A stretch of DNA of 64,000 bases from Acidobacteriota bacterium (lineage in GTDB: Bacteria; Acidobacteriota; Blastocatellia; Pyrinomonadales; Pyrinomonadaceae). The notes beneath the pieces were generated by a model. That model did not search any database and was not told where the DNA came from. It worked only from the letters and a program-made list of their open reading frames with translations. The stretch covers positions 1 to 64,000 of the forward strand of contig JAFDVK010000012.1 in NCBI GenBank assembly GCA_018269005.1. Direction: 5' to 3'. Positions 8,972-31,022 of this stretch are shown here, one piece after another. Position numbers and translations under genes: made by a program. Numbering within the stretch: position 1 is the first letter of the stretch; the number at the start of each line of letters is the position of its first letter.

Positions 8972-9426
8972 TGGTTCTAAAGGGAAAGCGTGTCAAAAAG
9001 GAAGTCATCGCGACCGGCGAGACGACCGTGTTTGTGTATTCGAGCGGCAAGCTCGTTGCCGAATACTCGACCGCTGCACCATCGGCGAATCCGACGACGA
9101 ACTACACGGCGACGGATATGCTTGGGAGTCCGAGGGTGTTGACGGATTCGTTCGGGAATGTTGTTTCGAGGAGAGATTTTTTGCCGTTCGGTGAGGAGCT
9201 TTATGCGGATGGCGTGCACCGCAGCGTCGCGGGCAAGTATTCGCAAACCGGTCAGGACGGCGTGCGCCAACGCTTCACGGGCTATCAGAAGGACGTCGAG
9301 ACCTCGCTCGACTTCGCCGAGGCCCGTATGTACGCCAACACCTACGGCCGCTTCACAGCAGTTGATCCGTTGCTCGCCTCAGGAAAGTCTGCCAATCCCC
9401 AAACCTTCAACCGCTTGGCAGGATGA
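8971..9426 (+). pseudogene. Orphan RHS tip 2, truncated at the element junction
   Basis: The frame starts at the ATG overlapping the lipoprotein stop and matches the parent RHS protein from the same 'G.RVKK' position as tip 1. It then runs through the conserved tip ('GNVVSRRDFLPFGEEL', 'FAEARMYANTYGRFTAVDPL'). After 'NPQTFNR' (9414) RHS similarity stops and the frame ends four codons later. The expected 'Y.Y..N.P....D..G' and toxin domain are absent. The sequence from about 9415 on belongs to the integrative element. It is therefore a decapitated cassette. Confidence 0.85.
9085..9414 (+). repeat. RHS tip repeat, orphan copy 2
   Basis: Third copy of the tip repeat found at 5893-6216 and 7458-7781. 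It is near-identical over its first ~80 bases, then more diverged, and 6 bp longer. The repeat stops exactly where the integrative element starts. Confidence 0.85.
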
Positions 9427-10486
9427 TGGCGGCGTTAGCTTCTTGTTCGGTGAGGCGGCCGTCGAAGATGATGATGGCGAGTCGTTCTTCGATCAGGTCG
9501 CGGAGATCGTCCGGATTCGCGGGATCGTTGAGTTCTCGTTGCCGGGCGATCAAGAAGTCGGCGAGGTCGCAGCCTTCTCGCTTGTCGGCATTGTTCGCGT
9601 AGCGTTCGATCAGGGTTGAGATCGAGATATCAAGGCCGTCCCGCCTTGCCGTGTCTCGAATATCCTTCCAACGCCCAAAGCCGTCCGCGTCGGGATAAAG
9701 AATGATCTTGCGTAGGTATCCGAGTGTTCTGAGCCTTTCGATGTTCAGGTTGCTTTTGCCGCCAGTGGCAAGCCATACGAGATCAGGAAAAACTTCATTG
9801 CAGATGGACGCAATGACGGCGGACTTTTCGCTTTCGACAATAGCAACGGGTAAGCCGGGCCGGTCGCGGAGAAGGTGTTCGCCGAAAAAGCATTGTTTCA
9901 GCTCGAAGGATCCCGGAAGCTTTCCGGCCTGCCTCAAGGTCGAATGTATCCAATTCGGCGATCTATCCTTTCGCCGCTTCCCCGTCTTCGAATCGTAGGC
10001 GATCAGCTTTCCCGTGCGTATGTGTTGCCGTCTGTCTATCTGCCAAAAGATCGCTTCACCGTTGCGGCCCGTGCCGATCTTGTATTCACTCACCGCCGCG
10101 AGAACGGCTTCAGGATCGAAAGGAAAGAGTCCGAGAAGGAATTGCACAAAGGCGTTTCGGTCGTAATCTCGAAGCGTCTCGATCAAGAGATGCCGCTCCA
10201 GATAGCTTGTCTTTGGCGTTTGCTTGGCGTTTACGGCATCGGAAGGCCGCTTCGCTTCTCTGTATGCCTTTGATCGAAATGAAGGCTTAAAGGCGTGATT
10301 CTCAGCGAAGTATTCGCTCGGCTTTCGATGATAGCCGCAAGATGATTCCCGGTCGCAGCGTCCGACATCTTCGGCGAGATACTCGCCCGTCTCGGTGTTG
10401 ACATACCGTGTGAACCGCTTGTTCGCTCCACAAGCCGGGCAACTATGCCGTGATCCCTTTCCGCCGTATCTTTCGAGTGAGAACAT
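9407..10486 (-). CDS. Zinc-finger/Toprim primase-like protein (DUF6371 type)
   Basis: This 359-residue protein opens with a CPACG...GRCDRESSCGYH zinc-binding region (residues ~15-52), as in DNA primases and in the DUF6371 proteins of Bacteroidota mobile elements. A Toprim-like core follows: 'VAIVESEKSAVIAS' near residue 215, then 'KIILYPDADGFGRWKD' near 270. It probably makes primers for replication of the excised element. It is downstream of the helicase gene on the same strand, separated by the repeat array. The last codons and TGA stop (9407-9409) read into RHS-derived sequence, so the natural C-terminus may have been altered when the element was joined here. Family assignment is from memory of the characteristic N-terminus. 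Confidence 0.8.
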   Translation of the reverse strand: MFSLERYGGKGSRHSCPACGANKRFTRYVNTETGEYLAEDVGRCDRESSCGYHRKPSEYFAENHAFKPSFRSKAYREAKRPSDAVNAKQTPKTSYLERHLLIETLRDYDRNAFVQFLLGLFPFDPEAVLAAVSEYKIGTGRNGEAIFWQIDRRQHIRTGKLIAYDSKTGKRRKDRSPNWIHSTLRQAGKLPGSFELKQCFFGEHLLRDRPGLPVAIVESEKSAVIASICNEVFPDLVWLATGGKSNLNIERLRTLGYLRKIILYPDADGFGRWKDIRDTARRDGLDISISTLIERYANNADKREGCDLADFLIARQRELNDPANPDDLRDLIEERLAIIIFDGRLTEQEANAAIILPSG

Positions 10487-10494
10487 TTCTATTC

Positions 10495-10638
10495 GGTGTT
10501 CACGGTGTTCACGATGTTCACGATGTTCACGGTGTTCACGATGTTCACGGTGTTCACGGTGTGAACGCTATGAACGCTATGAACGCTATGAACGCTATGA
10601 ACGCTATGAACGCTATGAACGCTATGAACGCTATGAAC
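10495..10638. repeat. Two opposed 9-bp iteron-like arrays
   Basis: Seven tandem GRTGTTCAC units (10495-10557) are followed by one hybrid unit GGTGTGAAC (10558-10566) and eight perfect GCTATGAAC units (10567-10638). Both unit types share a TGAAC core in opposite orientation (GTTCA on the left, TGAAC on the right). At the switch lies a perfect inverted repeat, GTTCAC-GGT-GTGAAC. The array fills the gap between helicase and primase genes, and the helicase stop codon lies inside the last unit. Tandem short repeats beside replication genes are typical of Rep-binding iterons, so this is a candidate origin. A simple-sequence expansion is the alternative. Confidence 0.9.
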
Positions 10639-11710
10639 GCAGATACTTGTTGACCGTTCCAAGTGCTACGCCAAGTTCAAACGCGATCTCTCGTTGTGAT
10701 CTTCCTTCCGCCGAAAGTTCTCTCGCTTTCGCGATCAGCCCTTCGCGGTCGCCGTCTGAAAGCTCGCGCAAGTGTTCGCGTTCCCTTCCGTAGCCGACAA
10801 ACTCGAAATGAAGGAAGTTACTTGGCTTTGCTATCTGGCAAAGCAGAACGTTGTCCGAATCGAAGCGCATTTCCGCATTGCGGACTTTGATCTGCTTCAA
10901 ATAGCGAAGGCCCTGCTCTTTGCAGCTCTCACCTATCGCAAAGCTCGAATCGCAGAAATTGATCAGCATCTTCGAGCCTTGCAGGTCATTCCGGCTTATC
11001 GGCTTTGCGTGATCGCGTTTTGGCGTATGAGCTAAGGCAAGGATCGAAAGGCCGTATTTCTGCTTTAGGCTCTTTAAGAATTTCATCAAAGGCAATGCAT
11101 CTTTCGCCCGTTCGGTCTCATTCTTGAGATAGGTCAGGTTGTCGATAACTAGAACCTTCGCACCGCTCGAAGTGATCTCTCTCTCAAGTGAATAGTTCAG
11201 ATAAGCCTCGAAGCCCTCGAAACCGTGATCTATCTCGCCTTCAGGATCGATCTCGGCCCGTAGTAGATTCGGGTGAAACGCGAAAGGGTTATCGAAGTAA
11301 GCCGCATTGAGCTGCTTCTCCGAATACCTTGCCTCGAATTGCTTGTCGGAAAGCTCGAAGTCGAAGTAGATAACCTTTTGCGGTTCGGCTTCGAGTGTCA
11401 GCTCTAATATAGAACGGCCGATCGATATAGCGTCTGCGATCTGAACCGCAAGGATCGATTTGCCTACGTTCGTATCCGCGAATAAGATGCAAATCTCGCC
11501 CTCGAACCAAAACTCGCCGAACAGCATCTTCGGCGCAGGCCGCTTCTGCGCGTCCGCGATCCATTGGCCCGCCGTCTGTATCTTGAATAGGCTTTTGAAG
11601 CCGTCCGGTTCGGGATCGCTTTCAGGGCCGGGCCGCGCAAGCATCGCTTCGGCATCGGCCCGAATGGCGTCCTCATCGATCTGAAACCGGTTCGACACCT
11701 CGTAGGTCAT
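10631..11710 (-). CDS. RepA-like AAA/RecA-fold ATPase with C-terminal helix-turn-helix
   Basis: A 359-residue protein. Walker A is in 'FADTNVGKSILAVQIAD' (residue ~90) and Walker B in 'AKVLVIDNLTYL' (residue ~185), followed by 'LALAHTPKRD', in the style of the RecA-fold ATPases (AAA_25, RepA-like helicases) carried by plasmids and integrative elements. The last 25 residues, 'REIAFELGVALGTVNKYLRS', form a helix-turn-helix that could bind the adjacent repeats. The ATG overlaps the stop of the zinc-ribbon gene by 4 bases (translational coupling), and the stop codon lies within the iteron-like array. Likely role: loading or acting as helicase at the element's origin (inference). Confidence 0.85.
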   Translation of the reverse strand: MTYEVSNRFQIDEDAIRADAEAMLARPGPESDPEPDGFKSLFKIQTAGQWIADAQKRPAPKMLFGEFWFEGEICILFADTNVGKSILAVQIADAISIGRSILELTLEAEPQKVIYFDFELSDKQFEARYSEKQLNAAYFDNPFAFHPNLLRAEIDPEGEIDHGFEGFEAYLNYSLEREITSSGAKVLVIDNLTYLKNETERAKDALPLMKFLKSLKQKYGLSILALAHTPKRDHAKPISRNDLQGSKMLINFCDSSFAIGESCKEQGLRYLKQIKVRNAEMRFDSDNVLLCQIAKPSNFLHFEFVGYGREREHLRELSDGDREGLIAKARELSAEGRSQREIAFELGVALGTVNKYLRS

Positions 11711-11943
11711 GCTGCCCTCCTGCGTTCCAGGAGCCGCTCACGCCTAATATATTCAACACGCTGTTGGCATCTCTGGCAGTAGCCGTCGAAGGCGAACCGC
11801 ATATAATCGGACCGGCATTTTCGGCATTGAATCGGGAAGGCTTCCGGCGTATAATGACCAACAGAAAACCTATCATTTGAATTCCACTTCAAGTTTGGTT
11901 TTGAGCCGATGTGTCCAGCATCGGCTTTTCTATTTCGTCTCAT
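11707..11943 (-). CDS. Small zinc-ribbon protein of the element
   Basis: A 78-residue basic protein with two C-x2-C pairs, 'CRKC' and 'CQRC', about 16 residues apart, followed by an arginine-rich tail 'RRERLLERRRAA'. This is a zinc ribbon probably binding nucleic acid. Both ends overlap neighbours by ATGA: the start with the excisionase-like gene and the stop with the ATPase gene. It is therefore the middle of a coupled three-gene unit. No specific family is recognised. Confidence 0.7.
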   Translation of the reverse strand: MRRNRKADAGHIGSKPNLKWNSNDRFSVGHYTPEAFPIQCRKCRSDYMRFAFDGYCQRCQQRVEYIRRERLLERRRAA

Positions 11944-12164
11944 CGATCCCTGCCCTCCCTTTTGTTTGGTTCAGCCGGAGCTTTCCATGACCGAGGCTTG
12001 CTAAAGAATGCCTCAAGGTCTTCCGGCTTGTAGCAGACATACGCTCCCAGCCGTACGAACGGCAAGCCCTTCTTCCTAGCCCTTATCAAAGTTGCCTTGC
12101 TCATCGGCCATTCTTGCAGAACATCGATCTCGCGTATGTAGTCAGTCAGCTTCGTTGATCTCAT
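11940..12164 (-). CDS. Excisionase-like helix-turn-helix protein
   Basis: A 74-residue protein with a MerR/excisionase-type winged helix: 'LQEWPMSKATLIRARKKGLPFVRLGAYVCYKPEDLEAFF'. The pattern of helix-turn-helix, 'GLP.VRLG', then 'Y...DLEAF', is that of HTH_17 proteins that help excision or regulate element genes. The start has an AAGGAATT ribosome-binding region. It is the first gene of the unit running through the zinc-ribbon, ATPase and primase genes. Upstream (12165-12390) lies an AT-rich stretch with repeated TTCGTGT and CGTGAAA words that may hold its operator. Confidence 0.8.
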   Translation of the reverse strand: MRSTKLTDYIREIDVLQEWPMSKATLIRARKKGLPFVRLGAYVCYKPEDLEAFFSKPRSWKAPAEPNKREGRDR

Positions 12165-12390
12165 AATTCCTTTTTCCTTTTACTTCCTTGCGTAATCCTG
12201 CACATTTTGCCGTGAAACAACGTGAAATCCTCGGTATGTGCGTGTTCGTTTCGTGTTCATTTTCGTGTAAGTTTTGTGTTGCTGTCCGTGTCAACCTCGT
12301 GTCTTTTTCTTGTGCATTTCTGACTCCACTTCTCTTCGTATTTGGTTGTCATAGTGCAATGTTCCGTATTTCTATCGTGATATGGAATGC
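12165..12390. promoter_or_regulatory. Putative control region of the element's replication unit
   Basis: No gene is visible here. On the plus strand the words CGTGAAA (twice, at about 12211 and 12221) and TTCGTGT/TTTCGTGT (several times between 12244 and 12275) recur at short spacing. The region is AT-richer than its surroundings and lies directly upstream of the excisionase-like gene. A regulator binding region is plausible; no clear -35/-10 pair was identified. Confidence 0.35.
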
Positions 12391-12463: not shown

Positions 12464-13465
12464 CTAGGTACAACTTTTCTTGCGCCCTCGACCGCTTTTC
12501 ATAAACCTCTGCTTCCAGTACTCCACGAGCCCTTCGTACTCGGACATCCTCAAATGACTGAACTCCTGTGCGATGTTCTTTCCACCAGTATGGGGCGTAA
12601 GCCGTACAATGAACTCAGCCTTGACGGTATTATCGGCTTCTCGGAATTGGGGGATGAATGCGGTAAGCAAGGCCATTACCTCCTTACGTTTGAATTTCGG
12701 GGCGGCCATTGACGTAACTTTGCCCATAGCGTTTTCTGGGGCCATCTCTTTCTCTAATCCCAAAATGAGTTTTTCGTGTGCTCTATAAAAAAGTCCGCCC
12801 CCTGGTTGTGTATAGACCTTTCTTCTTTTAAGCTCTGCGATCTGGTCGACCAGTGGAAGGCTCGTGAATTTTTTTCCAAGTGCAAGTCCAATACGTGCAA
12901 TCGTGTTCCGCAAGAGTACGTTAAGGAACTTCTGTTCAAGCAGCGAAGCTACACCCTGTTCAGATCGAGGCTCTAGGTGTGCATACAGGCGCTCCCAAAC
13001 CACGTTCGAAGCCGTTTCATCGAAGTTGCTCAGAGAGAGAACCACGTTCATGCTGTGAAACAAGTTAACCGGAGACAGCTTGCCTGATTGATCAGAATCC
13101 AGCTGCGCAATCACTGACTCAACAATAATATCTGCTCGTCCAATTGCCTTGGTGCCGACATTTAGGGGCGTGTCGTCGGGCATGAGCAGAATTCGATCAA
13201 GTACCTTCTTGAATTTGCCAAGATCAGTCCCATTCAATTCAGCAAGGTTTACTTGAGTTCCATTTGTCAGTTCCTTTTTTTGCGACCGCCTTGGCTTATT
13301 GGAATCTGACGACGCCCCCTTTGAAGGCACCGTTGCCTTGTCGCCGTTTCCAAGGCCCCTCTTGCGTGCTTTTTTCGTCATATTCTGGAGCTCCTGTTGC
13401 AGGTTCTCGTCAAACCTGCAAGCAGATTCAGCAAGTTTCCGAGTAATCCTGTTGTAAGTAGGCAT
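12464..13465 (-). CDS. Unknown 333-residue cargo protein of the element
   Basis: Not recognised. The first ~65 residues are basic and probably disordered (KKARKRGLGNGDK, KPRRSQKKE). The rest looks mostly helical, with no membrane segment, signal peptide, zinc site or Walker motif, and ends in a basic tail 'SGRGRKKSCT'. It starts 23 bp after the recombinase stop on the same strand and has its own terminator, so it is co-transcribed with the recombinase. Its DNA looks AT-richer than neighbouring genes. Accessory genes placed next to an integrase often serve defence or element stability, but nothing in the sequence shows which. Confidence 0.65.
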   Translation of the reverse strand: MPTYNRITRKLAESACRFDENLQQELQNMTKKARKRGLGNGDKATVPSKGASSDSNKPRRSQKKELTNGTQVNLAELNGTDLGKFKKVLDRILLMPDDTPLNVGTKAIGRADIIVESVIAQLDSDQSGKLSPVNLFHSMNVVLSLSNFDETASNVVWERLYAHLEPRSEQGVASLLEQKFLNVLLRNTIARIGLALGKKFTSLPLVDQIAELKRRKVYTQPGGGLFYRAHEKLILGLEKEMAPENAMGKVTSMAAPKFKRKEVMALLTAFIPQFREADNTVKAEFIVRLTPHTGGKNIAQEFSHLRMSEYEGLVEYWKQRFMKSGRGRKKSCT

Positions 13466-13488: not shown

Positions 13489-14715
13489 TTAATTCACGAA
13501 CTCTCCGTCTGTATCGACCGCTCTGGTCGGTGTATCGAGCCTTTCTCTCACTTCGTCGATGATCGCAAGGTCGTCGGTCGAAACGTAATGCTTCTGCGTC
13601 GTCGCAAGGGTGCTATGGCCCGCGAGCTTTCCGGCAACCGCAAGCGGCACGCCCTTGACACTCAATCGAGTTACGAAGGTTCGCCGCAGGTCGTGAAAGG
13701 TCAGCCCTTCGATCCCTGCAAGCCGCAAGGCCGTCGCCCAACTCCGCTTGAAGTCATTGAACGGGAATATCCGCCCTTTCTCGCCGAAGTTCGGCAATGC
13801 CAGAAGCTCAGCTTTGAGCCTGTCCCGGAGCGGAACATTGCGGCCTCGCTGCGTCTTTGTATGAAGGCTTTGAACGTGTATGAAGTTCCGGTCGAAATCG
13901 ACGTTCTGCCATTCGAGCGTCAACACTTCATTGCGCCGCAAGCCTGCATCAAGCCCAAGCAATATCGCGGCCTTTAGATGCGGATTGTTGACGTTTATCG
14001 CCGCTGTAACGGGCTTTCCGCGTCGAAGGTATGTAACCGCTCGCATTCCCTCGCAGGACGCTAAAAGAAGCGTTTCTTCGCTCTCGGTGAGAGTTCGCGT
14101 CCGGGCCTTTTCCGCATCGGGGTCGATCGCCTTCGAGCCAAGCGTTATGTCTCGGCTTATCCAGCCTTCCGCGTATGCGAATTTGATCAGGTGTTTGAAG
14201 ATCGCAAGCGTCCGGTTGACGGTCGAAAGTGATACACGCTTTCGCTCGCTCGGCTTCAACTCGCCTGCCTTTCCGCGTCTATCGCCCTGCTTCAACCGCC
14301 AGGTCTTGAAACCGTTAAGATCGTTGCGCGTGATACTCGCCAAGCGTTTCTTGCCGAAGTATTCTTCCAGCGTGTCCATAGCTGTATAAACCGGCTTAGT
14401 TGATCGAATGCCAGCAACCTTTCGCCCTTCTGCGATCTCTGCCGGACGGTAGAAAGTTCGCTTGGCATACGCCGCTAGATCACTGAATGTCATTTTGTCG
14501 CCAACGACACTCTGCCCTTGCGTCTTGGAAAGTTTGCCTTCGAGTCTCGGCCTGGCATCAAGCGCGTCGTTTCTTGTGGCGAATTGGTAGGTCTTGCGTC
14601 GGGTGTTACCGTGTTCGTCCGAAAAGGTAAAACGTAGCGTCCAACGGTTCTTGTATGATCCGGCGTCGTCGGCTCCCTTCTTCCCACGTCGGAAGATAGA
14701 ATGCTTGATTTCCAT
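13489..14715 (-). CDS. int: Tyrosine recombinase (phage-type integrase)
   Basis: A 408-residue site-specific recombinase that should integrate and excise the element. The core-binding domain lies around residues 60-200. The catalytic domain has 'LGLDAGLRRNEVLTLEWQNVDF' (first Arg), 'FHDLRRTFVTRL' (H-x-x-R), 'AGHSTLATTQKHYV' (His, then the nucleophilic Tyr). The ATG at 14715 has an AGAGG ribosome-binding site 5 bases upstream and is preferred over an in-frame start at 14760. The gene reads away from the tRNA-Thr remnant 180 bp to its right, the usual place for an attachment site. Confidence 0.93.
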   Translation of the reverse strand: MEIKHSIFRRGKKGADDAGSYKNRWTLRFTFSDEHGNTRRKTYQFATRNDALDARPRLEGKLSKTQGQSVVGDKMTFSDLAAYAKRTFYRPAEIAEGRKVAGIRSTKPVYTAMDTLEEYFGKKRLASITRNDLNGFKTWRLKQGDRRGKAGELKPSERKRVSLSTVNRTLAIFKHLIKFAYAEGWISRDITLGSKAIDPDAEKARTRTLTESEETLLLASCEGMRAVTYLRRGKPVTAAINVNNPHLKAAILLGLDAGLRRNEVLTLEWQNVDFDRNFIHVQSLHTKTQRGRNVPLRDRLKAELLALPNFGEKGRIFPFNDFKRSWATALRLAGIEGLTFHDLRRTFVTRLSVKGVPLAVAGKLAGHSTLATTQKHYVSTDDLAIIDEVRERLDTPTRAVDTDGEFVN

Positions 14716-14898
14716 AATTCCTCTTTGAAAAAAATTAGGACTCAAATTAGGACTCGCCACTAAGTCCTAGTGGGAAAAAGTATGCCATGCGAGGAGAATT
14801 GATGCAAACCTGTGATTTAAGTAGACGCTAATGTTTATGGGACTTGGGCGAGCTTCCGATCAATGTTTTCGGGCGCAGTTGTGAGTTAGGGCAACTCT

Positions 14899-14943
14899 TT
14901 CGTAATCGAAAGGTCGTCGGTTCAAATCCGACGGGTGGCTCCA
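14899..14943 (+). other. 3' half of tRNA-Thr(CGT), element attachment site
   Basis: From the anticodon loop on, the sequence is a perfect tRNA. It has TT-CGT-AA (anticodon CGT at 14901-14903), the 3' anticodon strand TCGAA, a GTCGG/CCGAC T-arm with loop TTCAAAT, acceptor strand GGGTGGC, T and encoded CCA. Upstream, the matching anticodon 5' strand (TTCGA), D-arm and acceptor 5' strand (GCCACCC) are absent. A tRNA cut in the anticodon loop next to an integrase is the displaced attachment half left by integration. The intact tRNA expected at the other end is not in view. Confidence 0.8.
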
Positions 14944-29115: not shown

Positions 29116-30112
29116 GATCGGCAAAGAAGCCGTCGTATAGCACCACAAGGAAGTCCCGTTCCGCCGGTGCGATCCGCAAAGACGTAACTTTCGCCCGACT
29201 GGCCAAATTCGTATGGTTCATGGAAACCAGAGCGGAAAAAAGCTCCCCTCCTTACGAAGGAGGGGTGGCAGCGGTTTCCGCTGACGGGGTGGTTCTCTCG
29301 TCGAGTGTAGATCAGGGAAAGAACCACCCGATCGCGATTCGTAAGTTCGAGATCGAATGAGAAGCGGCCGCTAGTTCACGAAGAGGTCCCAAAAGCCTCG
29401 TTAAGGCTGTCGCTTGTCACGCTAAATTACTGCAACTTATAGTACCTATCGCATTTCATCGCTTTTAGCACGGTTACGGTGATTTTCACGTCATTTCTTG
29501 ACGGCACCTTCAAAAATAGGCGTATTTTTGCACATGGATCCGCACAATACGTGTAAATCCCGCACGGTTTTTTCGCATTTTTTCCCGTCTTGAGGAATAT
29601 CGCCGCTCTGTCGCCGGGGTCCGCCACAGTGCCGAACTTGCCGGCCGCCGCGATTGCCGCAAACGCCGCAGGAAAAACACGATCGCCATAAATTCGCCGA
29701 AGGGTGGCCGACACGCGAATCGTCCCTTTAGGGGACTTGAGAAAATAGCCCAGGGTAAGGCCGCCTCGGCCGCCGTCCTGGGTTCGCTCGGTATCAATGA
29801 TCCTCCGGAGAGCGCGGAGCACGCGACAGAGCCTTTGTCGGCGGCACAGCCGCCTCCGAGATCGATTTTGAGAGCCGTGCCCCGGTCTTAAGACCAGGGC
29901 AATTCAAAGCGGAGGGCAGCGGCAATACTAAGAAGAATGGCGAATTGATGATGACGCGTGCCCATACTGCGTGCGGGCTTCCGCAACGGTTACTCTGTAG
30001 CTCTGTAACTCTGTAACTCTGTAACTCTGCAACTTCAGTCTCTTGACATTGGATGCAACGATGTGCTATCTATGAGACAGCGTTAAATGTTGCGTTGACG
30101 CGAACAAATGTT
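29116..30112. other. Gene-poor stretch with repeats
   Basis: No gene I would defend. Visible items: a hairpin CTCCCCTCCTT/AAGGAGGGG near 29243-29265; a palindromic repeat at 29806-29860 of the type also present at 37618-37669 and 41083-41131 (GGCGGC/GCCGCC plus GCGTGC/GCACGC hairpins); and five 8-base units CTCTGTAR at 29993-30032. Open frames on the minus strand at 29427-29822 have no start signal or protein-like pattern. Confidence 0.6.
29993..30032. repeat. Tandem 8-bp repeat CTCTGTAA
   Basis: Five head-to-tail units (CTCTGTAG, three CTCTGTAA, CTCTGCAA) stand 80 bp before the gene at 30113. Probably a simple-sequence expansion; variable copy number between strains would be expected. Confidence 0.85.
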
Positions 30113-30529: not shown

Positions 30530-31022
30530 GTAAACCTCGATAGCGTGAAGCCGTGTCGGATCGCGCTTCCGGACACCACAAGCGTAACGATGGTCGTATC
30601 GGAGGCAGATTGTCGCCGAAGGTGACGAACAAAATAGCGTAGGGTGGAACCCTACGTTCTTACGCCGAATTGGATCTGTCCCTGAAAGGGACAAACAATA
30701 AAAGCGTTCGTTGCTCCCTTACAGGGAGCATTTTTGCTCGTCGTCCCATTCGTAGGGATGCGGCCTTCGGCCTTTCCCTACGCTATTGTATTTGTCCCTT
30801 TCAGGGACACTAGAGCAGCGGAGCCGCCGGGCTGTGCCGGCGACAGAAGAGAAGAACCCAGTCGCTACCGCTCCCGGTTCTGACTCGGCGTCTCTGCGTC
30901 CCGGCGGTTGATCTCGAGTGGATGACAACGGGACGCCTTACTCGCGTGCGGTGTTCTGCAACGAACTGACTGCTTACGGCTTACTGCTTACGGCTTACTG
31001 CTTACGGCTCACTGACCACTGC
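30530..31022. repeat. Repeat-rich spacer
   Basis: No gene seen. Small palindromes GTAGGG-TGGAAC-CCTACG (about 30640), GTCCCTGAAAGGGAC (about 30677), CTCCCTTACAGGGAG (about 30716) and GTCCCTTTCAGGGAC (about 30795) follow one another. A REP copy lies at 30861-30884, and three 14-bp units CTGCTTACGGCTTA at 30970-31011. Confidence 0.65.

Follow-up and report, generated by a model that had tools for sequence, protein, structure and literature searches.

The Rep helicase of SaPIs uses its C-terminal domain to recognize iterons located directly downstream of its own gene (PMC7581432), and PICI origins are composed of two iteron sets placed around an AT-rich region (PMC6092414). A further example is Cch2 of SCCmec, a candidate self-loading helicase whose C-terminal domain binds iterons of 5 nt located downstream of the gene (PMC7581432). 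With respect to IMEs, a review states that their replication after excision has never been studied (PMC5704250). Here, we describe a repeat array from an Acidobacteriota bacterium (contig JAFDVK010000012.1, positions 1 to 64,000; this whole 64,000-nucleotide stretch is referred to as the window). Based on sequence comparisons, we suggest, with a probability of about 0.74, that a small integrative element uses this array as its replication origin and that the element's own helicase reads it.

The array and its element in the window

The array (10494 to 10640, assigned to neither strand) was delimited by repeat calls and by homologous arrays and consists of seven GRTGTTCA units, a hybrid unit, and eight GCTATGAA units with a 9-bp period. 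On the plus strand, the left run is made up of seven CGRTGTTCA units starting at 10494, 10503, 10512, 10521, 10530, 10539, and 10548, followed by the hybrid unit CGGTGTGAA at 10557 and by an expanded run of eight identical CGCTATGAA units (10566 to 10637, plus strand), the last of which starts at 10629. The orientation switches at a dyad, GTTCAC-GGT-GTGAAC or GTTCACGGTGTGAAC (10552 to 10566, no strand). The initial annotation had listed seven GRTGTTCAC units, a hybrid, and eight GCTATGAAC units sharing a core, with a dyad at the switch, and all of these are found in the sequence. Both "unit types" share one core; counted by this common core (GTTCA/TGAAC), there are 7 + 9 half-sites in two opposed runs with a strict and unbroken 9-bp period. 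Tandem Repeats Finder returned the array as two runs, 10494 to 10562 (93% match) and 10562 to 10640 (100%), together with two more short tandem repeats at 29992 to 30034 and 30969 to 31014. The array occupies the intergenic space that extends from the primase start (10486) to the ATPase stop (10631), and it is present once in the window's own genome. The ATPase stop codon, TAG, sits within a repeat unit, and on the coding strand the CGCTATGAA units read CGT TCA TAG (RS*), i.e., the end of the ATPase gene repeated.

The ATPase gene (10631 to 11710, minus strand) encodes a RecA-fold (SF4-type) ATPase/helicase of 359 amino acids with a C-terminal helix-turn-helix (HTH). On the other side of the array, a gene at 9407 to 10486 (minus strand) encodes a Zn-ribbon + DUF6371 protein, also of 359 amino acids, which carries VESEK and DAD motifs and is a primase candidate that we take to be Toprim-like. 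The earlier placement of the array between helicase and primase genes agrees with the Pfam matches (AAA_25 versus Zn_ribbon_16 plus DUF6371), and the HTH that had been proposed at the ATPase C terminus is matched, weakly, in Pfam as well; the Pfam search gave no match to a Rep_3 domain. Among the features of SF4 helicases, a RecA fold (in the structure model) and the Walker A (ADTNVGKS, residue 78) and Walker B (VLVIDN, residue 186) motifs were found in the ATPase. Its model matches RSF1010 RepA, T7 gp4, DnaB, RadA, and KaiC (Z of about 19 to 20; 19.4 for RepA), with a Z of 19.4 and an rmsd of 3.3 to 3.5 over 214 to 216 residues against 1olo/1g8y. A search of solved structures by sequence gave as its sole match a short stretch of a non-helicase entry, which was set aside. 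The HTH codons (residues 319 to 358; 10637 to 10756, minus strand) were placed by the model and by column analysis, and their residues track the array sequence.

Two more genes on the minus strand encode a small HTH_17-like protein of 74 amino acids that is a possible excisionase (11940 to 12164; a weak match, below the curated cutoff) and the element's tyrosine integrase (13489 to 14760; Pfam). Relative to the sister copy, L032, the ATPase and the integrase are under purifying selection (dN/dS of 0.075 and 0.085, respectively), and a 333-amino-acid ORF at 12464 to 13465, with no family match, has a dN/dS of 0.72, a value that derives from few changes and indicates relaxed constraint; it is possibly a cargo gene. 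Beside the integrase gene, the 3' end of tRNA-Thr(CGT) is present as a 45-nt copy (14899 to 14943, plus strand), which is the probable attachment site. The window holds just this 3' end and no complete tRNA, the intact tRNA-Thr(CGT) gene is located elsewhere in the same genome, on contig C5, and a search for a second att copy found none. By sequence, these genes and the array look like a small integrative element of ~5.5 kb. No relaxase or mobilization gene was matched among its four large ORFs or the 74-amino-acid ORF, and because no relaxase is recognized and the same flank occurs in two genomes, the element may leave rarely or never.

The left end of the element (9340 to 9470) borders Rhs-type gene fragments, and in the sister copy the same left junction (CAACCGCTTGGCAGG) is preceded by a different Rhs-like sequence. 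A second, different array (12241 to 12313), made up of six CGTGT-like pentamers and a weaker seventh at steps of 11 to 12 bp, lies upstream of the small HTH_17-like ORF; none of 200 shuffles scored as high, and no convincing counterpart was seen at the same place among 12 related loci.

The sister copy (L032, the same region as L003) belongs to genome G017, which is of the same genus as the window's genome. It is 97% identical to the window between 10616 and at least 15200, about 75 to 79% identical over the array plus ~300 bp at the start of the primase gene, and 93% identical again to 9393. The low-identity stretch spans 10200 to 10535 (array and primase N terminus), with both flanks at 93 to 97%, and by this profile a recombination tract starts at the array. 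The array of this 98%-identical homologue (L003/L032) is 3 + 3, with three GTTCA and three TGAAC units, to which one detector adds a fourth, degenerate right-hand unit. Because the sister copy has 3 + 3, we consider the window's 7 + 9 to be a recent local expansion and the two-sidedness to be older; the eight GCTATGAAC copies look like a recent local expansion of the stop-codon-bearing unit.

Arrays and HTHs across related elements

Relatives of the ATPase were drawn from genome contigs, relatives of the window's genome, viral contigs, plasmid and phage collections, and further copies. A Bacteroidota sample had ATPase matches in 14 of 395 genomes, and one viral-contig scan gave no ATPase relatives, whereas other viral-contig scans gave some. 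With six ORF rows that fell short of the HTH end left out and duplicates merged, the nonredundant set comprised 153 relatives. The array detector covered 300 nt past the HTH codons and called a convergent pair of runs sharing a 6-mer core, with a minimum of five sites, a step of 8 to 10, and a score of at least 18; it found arrays in 87 of the 153 relatives, whereas none of 612 dinucleotide shuffles and 6 of 612 stretches taken as controls from the same loci gave one. A detector with the period fixed at 9 bp found 71 arrays in 152 loci (1/608 shuffles, 4/608 controls); at other periods, it found none (6, 7, 11, and 12), 11 (period of 8), or 20 (period of 10). From the closest to the most distant group of relatives, arrays were present in 77/88, 5/17, 5/26, and 0/22. 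The detector thus called no array in 66 of the 153, including all 22 of the most distant, and the close relatives L053 and L059 had none within 891 nt. The initial annotation had proposed comparing the same spot in related elements, and what those 77 of the 88 closest loci carry there is a like architecture rather than no array or unrelated repeats. Newly drawn loci gave arrays in 21 of 26, versus 1 of 260 shuffles, under a looser minimum of four sites.

The commonest number of half-sites is six (46 of the 87 arrays, 42 of them 3 + 3), within a range of 5 to 16, and 2 + 2 is seen in some other loci; the gap between the arms is 0 to 14 bp in 85 of the 87. The joining of two unit types head to head, singled out earlier as a special feature, turns out to be two different things: the head-to-head layout is the family rule, usually as 3 + 3 with one core, and the second unit type is the local expansion. 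Gene order in the family is int-xis-helicase-array-primase, and circular records with the helicase-array module exist. Arrays are GC-richer than their own loci (AT content, −0.053) and their flanks are slightly AT-richer (+0.051 and +0.078), figures for which three TCGTAACA loci were in the wrong class (the class was right in the mutual-information analysis). An AT-rich melting region between the arms was not seen in this comparison; an obvious melting site is absent because the dyad center is usually short, in addition to the GC-richer array and the barely AT-richer flanks.

L123 (NZ_OY725959.1) is a circular 15.7-kb record with two integrative-element replication modules and two AAA ATPases, apparently fused. 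An unusual architecture is seen in L152 and L153, which are distant homologues within the genus of the window: they have a long C-terminal extension, and the coding sequence itself contains 9-bp repeats of the GACTCG type.

The cores can be grouped into classes, whose names were given after the arrays had been seen: GTAAC (32), GTTCA (22), TCGTAC (12), TCGTAA (6), TGTCCC (6), TTTCA (3), and others (6). Six unclassed arrays of the 87 were left out of class-based analyses, and L071 was put by hand, after its sequence had been read, in the class of its HTH-adjacent array. For motif similarity between arrays, the correlation is 0.55 with HTH identity and 0.26 with helicase-core identity; the partial correlation is 0.50 for the HTH when the helicase core is controlled for (0 of 1,000 permutations as high) and −0.02 for the helicase core when the HTH is controlled for. 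Among pairs with a core identity of at least 0.75, motif similarity reached at least 0.8 in 96% of the 219 pairs with an HTH identity of 60% or more, compared with 2% of the 61 pairs with an HTH identity below 30%. In leave-one-out prediction, the class was given correctly by the nearest HTH in 79 of 81 cases and by the nearest helicase core in 50 of 81; with neighbors of core identity above 0.8 barred, the corresponding numbers were 78 and 30 of 81.

The signal is concentrated in the HTH. Across 313 protein columns, the 20 with the highest mutual information with class all lie at residues 324 to 356, and the best helicase-core column scores 0.43, compared with 1.39. The strongest columns are 339, 340, 348, 350, 354, 355, and 356. 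In the structure model, which has HTH helices at 339 to 346 and 350 to 358, they map to the beginning of HTH helix 2 and to the final helix or the residues immediately preceding it. Within the first 250 nt, 449 cores were counted versus 8 expected, with little enrichment elsewhere. A second, promoter-linked copy of the site was also considered; no strong peak was seen outside the array, and smaller excesses are at −1000, −3750, and 1250 nt. It is well supported by these patterns that the helicase's C-terminal HTH reads the array, and the fact that the core follows the HTH across relatives favors the earlier suggestion of a symmetrical site read from both sides by the HTH of a Rep-like helicase.

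Forward prediction on 26 new loci (16 already-known loci excluded and one dropped) gave the right class in 12 of the 22 with an HTH identity of at least 0.5 and in none of the 4 below; at a cut of 0.6, chosen post hoc, 11 of 12 were right. The misses were mostly arrays with a core outside the predicted class (e.g., TGCCCA, GTTCCA, GCTCCA, and TGTCCA), often new to the first set. By eye, the helix end VNKY occurs mostly with TGTTCA, VNRY occurs mostly with TTCCA-type cores, and KSTV-type ends occur with TGTCC, a hint of a simple HTH residue-to-base code.

Several loci suggest that the HTH and the array have been exchanged together. In L060 and L067, which belong to one assembly (titled Azovibrio but probably misbinned Bacteroidota), the helicase cores are 99% identical in amino acid sequence, whereas the HTHs are 51% identical and the arrays are GTTTCA versus TGTCCC. 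The nucleotide identity of L051 and L093 is mostly 80 to 95% before the HTH, 36 to 58% over the HTH and array, and mostly 58 to 95% over the primase gene; since the drop is limited to the HTH and array, both appear to have moved as one piece. L071 has an HTH-matched GTAAC array at the stop codon and a TCGTAC array further down, before the primase gene, and by its sequence the latter is an older array left behind the newer, HTH-matched one. The swap pairs support the view that HTH and array are exchanged as a ~200-bp cassette. Parsimony on the helicase-core tree gives 29 class changes; as few branches of this tree are well supported, the number of swaps is uncertain.

Proposed function and alternative explanations

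In the mechanism that we propose, the integrase and the excisionase-like protein would excise the element as a circle. Judging from the covariation, each HTH tail of the helicase would bind a single 5- to 6-bp core, to the left and right of the dyad alike, and the modal number suggests that the six half-sites (3 + 3) could gather either one six-subunit ring or, for a future ring pair, one trimer on each side. The loaded helicase would then open neighboring, slightly AT-richer DNA, with melting starting in the flanks, and would recruit the zinc-ribbon/DUF6371 primase encoded next to it, whereupon a host polymerase would copy the circle, which would survive until reintegration or transfer. The HTH codons directly adjoin the array, so that one recombination tract of ~200 bp could swap both and thereby confer a new replicon specificity, with motor and primase untouched.

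In a fuller form, we hypothesize that a helicase of the DnaB/gp4 superfamily serves as its own sequence-specific initiator, placing six HTH tails on a 3 + 3 array, that its recognition helix follows a learnable code, and that elements in Bacteroidota and Acidobacteriota switch replicon identity by means of a ~200-bp cassette, which would act as an incompatibility switch. We regard the odds of this fuller form as about even.

The same HTH-array contact could instead serve an operator, at which the bound helicase represses or limits the downstream primase gene or pairs two copies to restrain copy number, with the origin located elsewhere. Autoregulation and handcuffing are common among iteron initiators, which counts in favor of such an operator, as does the position of the array between two codirectional genes; in 70 of the 87 cases, a primase ORF begins no more than 700 nt downstream. 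However, the array is inside an operon rather than at a promoter, and cores are only slightly in excess upstream of the helicase; 13 of the 87 arrays have no primase detected in the sequence covered; six loci (L069, L075, L076, L079, L106, and L109) have the array about 200 nt downstream; and circular, cfxA-bearing Bacteroides records, which appear to be Tn4555-like from their cfxA, integrase, and mobilization genes, have it within the ATPase ORF, behind the HTH. Overall, we consider an operator unlikely, although it is the main rival of an origin. The helicase might also be recruited to a site for transfer, excision, or partition (oriT-like, centromere-like, or for recombination directionality). 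This would suit the relatives, as these are integrative elements and some of them have a mobilization gene at a greater distance downstream, but we find it more improbable still, given that mob homologues occur in few relatives (e.g., L121, L124, L126, and L145) and apart from the array, which is tied to the helicase HTH rather than to int or mob.

Two further explanations dispense with protein binding to the DNA or with function altogether. The window's array folds strongly (−55.1 kcal/mol; z of −4.5), as would befit an inverted repeat that acts in RNA, as a long hairpin attenuating or stabilizing the helicase-primase transcript, but strong folding is expected of any inverted repeat. Moreover, opposed spacers are complementary at 194 of 372 positions, with no excess over the null (mean of 205.6, SD of 5.6), the array has no Rfam match, and a hairpin leaves unexplained why the core follows the HTH. 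The spacer-complementarity test rejects this as the main function, and we judge it very improbable. Hardly credible at all is a neutral minisatellite without function: copy number does change fast (7 + 9 versus 3 + 3 between copies 97% identical over the flank), yet arrays of like architecture and differing sequence occupy this position in 87 of the 153 relatives and in 21 of 26 new loci, and the tracking of the HTH by the core sequence contradicts it.

Read as an origin, the array is a widespread and concrete candidate with a built-in test, namely, the exchange of HTH and array between elements. A protein-DNA recognition code could be studied on the natural data set that the paired HTH/core variation provides, and HTH/core pairs could help to type such elements and to predict their compatibility.

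Comparison with known replication modules

The presumably Tn4555-type Bacteroides records (CP103138.1 and others) resemble the window element in having a helicase-HTH, a GTCCCA-type array, DUF6371, and integrase genes; they differ in the position of the array inside the helicase ORF and, for CP103138.1, in the presence of a mobilization gene, which the window element does not have. RSF1010 (RepA-RepB'-RepC) is alike in combining a RepA-like hexameric RecA-fold helicase, by structure match, with a separate primase. It uses, and needs, a separate iteron-binding protein, RepC, whereas here the HTH is part of the helicase. In phage lambda, the DNA-binding segment of O adjoins its iterons and is exchangeable together with them, a likeness to the adjacent and co-exchangeable HTH and array; O is not a helicase, and its four long iterons are inside the gene. 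The alpha protein of satellite phage P4 is also a helicase-primase with its own origin-binding domain, although of another helicase family. The P4 type I iteron, which we take to be TGTTCACC, presumably resembles the window core; TGTTCACC itself is absent from the window, and a literature search on the term P4-type iteron gave no result.

A classical iteron plasmid origin consists of a Rep_3-type initiator and direct iterons of about 17 to 22 bp, whereas the window has 9-bp units in two opposed runs and no Rep_3. Against such direct-repeat iterons, the statement in the initial annotation that the array is not a standard iteron layout holds; it does not hold against PICIs and SaPIs, where two sets located 3' of a helicase-initiator are known (PMC6092414, PMC7581432). 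Literature searches, limited to open-license PMC papers and hence a weak negative, found no paper whose title and abstract describe the array or an HTH-array cassette.

The rep-ori modules of SaPIs and PICIs are alike in that the helicase is the initiator, recognition of iterons is C-terminal, the iterons are 3' of the gene and in two sets, and a primase gene is part of the module (PMC6092414, PMC7581432). The helicases of SaPIs and PICIs are of the DUF927 or D5/Primase_Cterm type, whereas the one described here is an AAA_25/RecA-fold SF4 protein; their iterons flank an AT-rich region, whereas here the arms nearly touch and the array is less AT-rich than the locus; and no phage-satellite genes were seen here. 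Cch2 of SCCmec, with its putative origin, likewise is a helicase with a C-terminal domain and has short iterons downstream of its gene, but it belongs to another helicase family, has three direct-repeat iterons rather than a 3 + 3 head-to-head array, and is accompanied by a polymerase-based primase. The array and helicase would represent another SaPI-kind pairing of helicase-initiator and origin, built on an unrelated motor. By analogy, the present system would work like the SaPI, PICI, and SCCmec origins and yet be no member of any of them, as its helicase family differs and its arms nearly touch.
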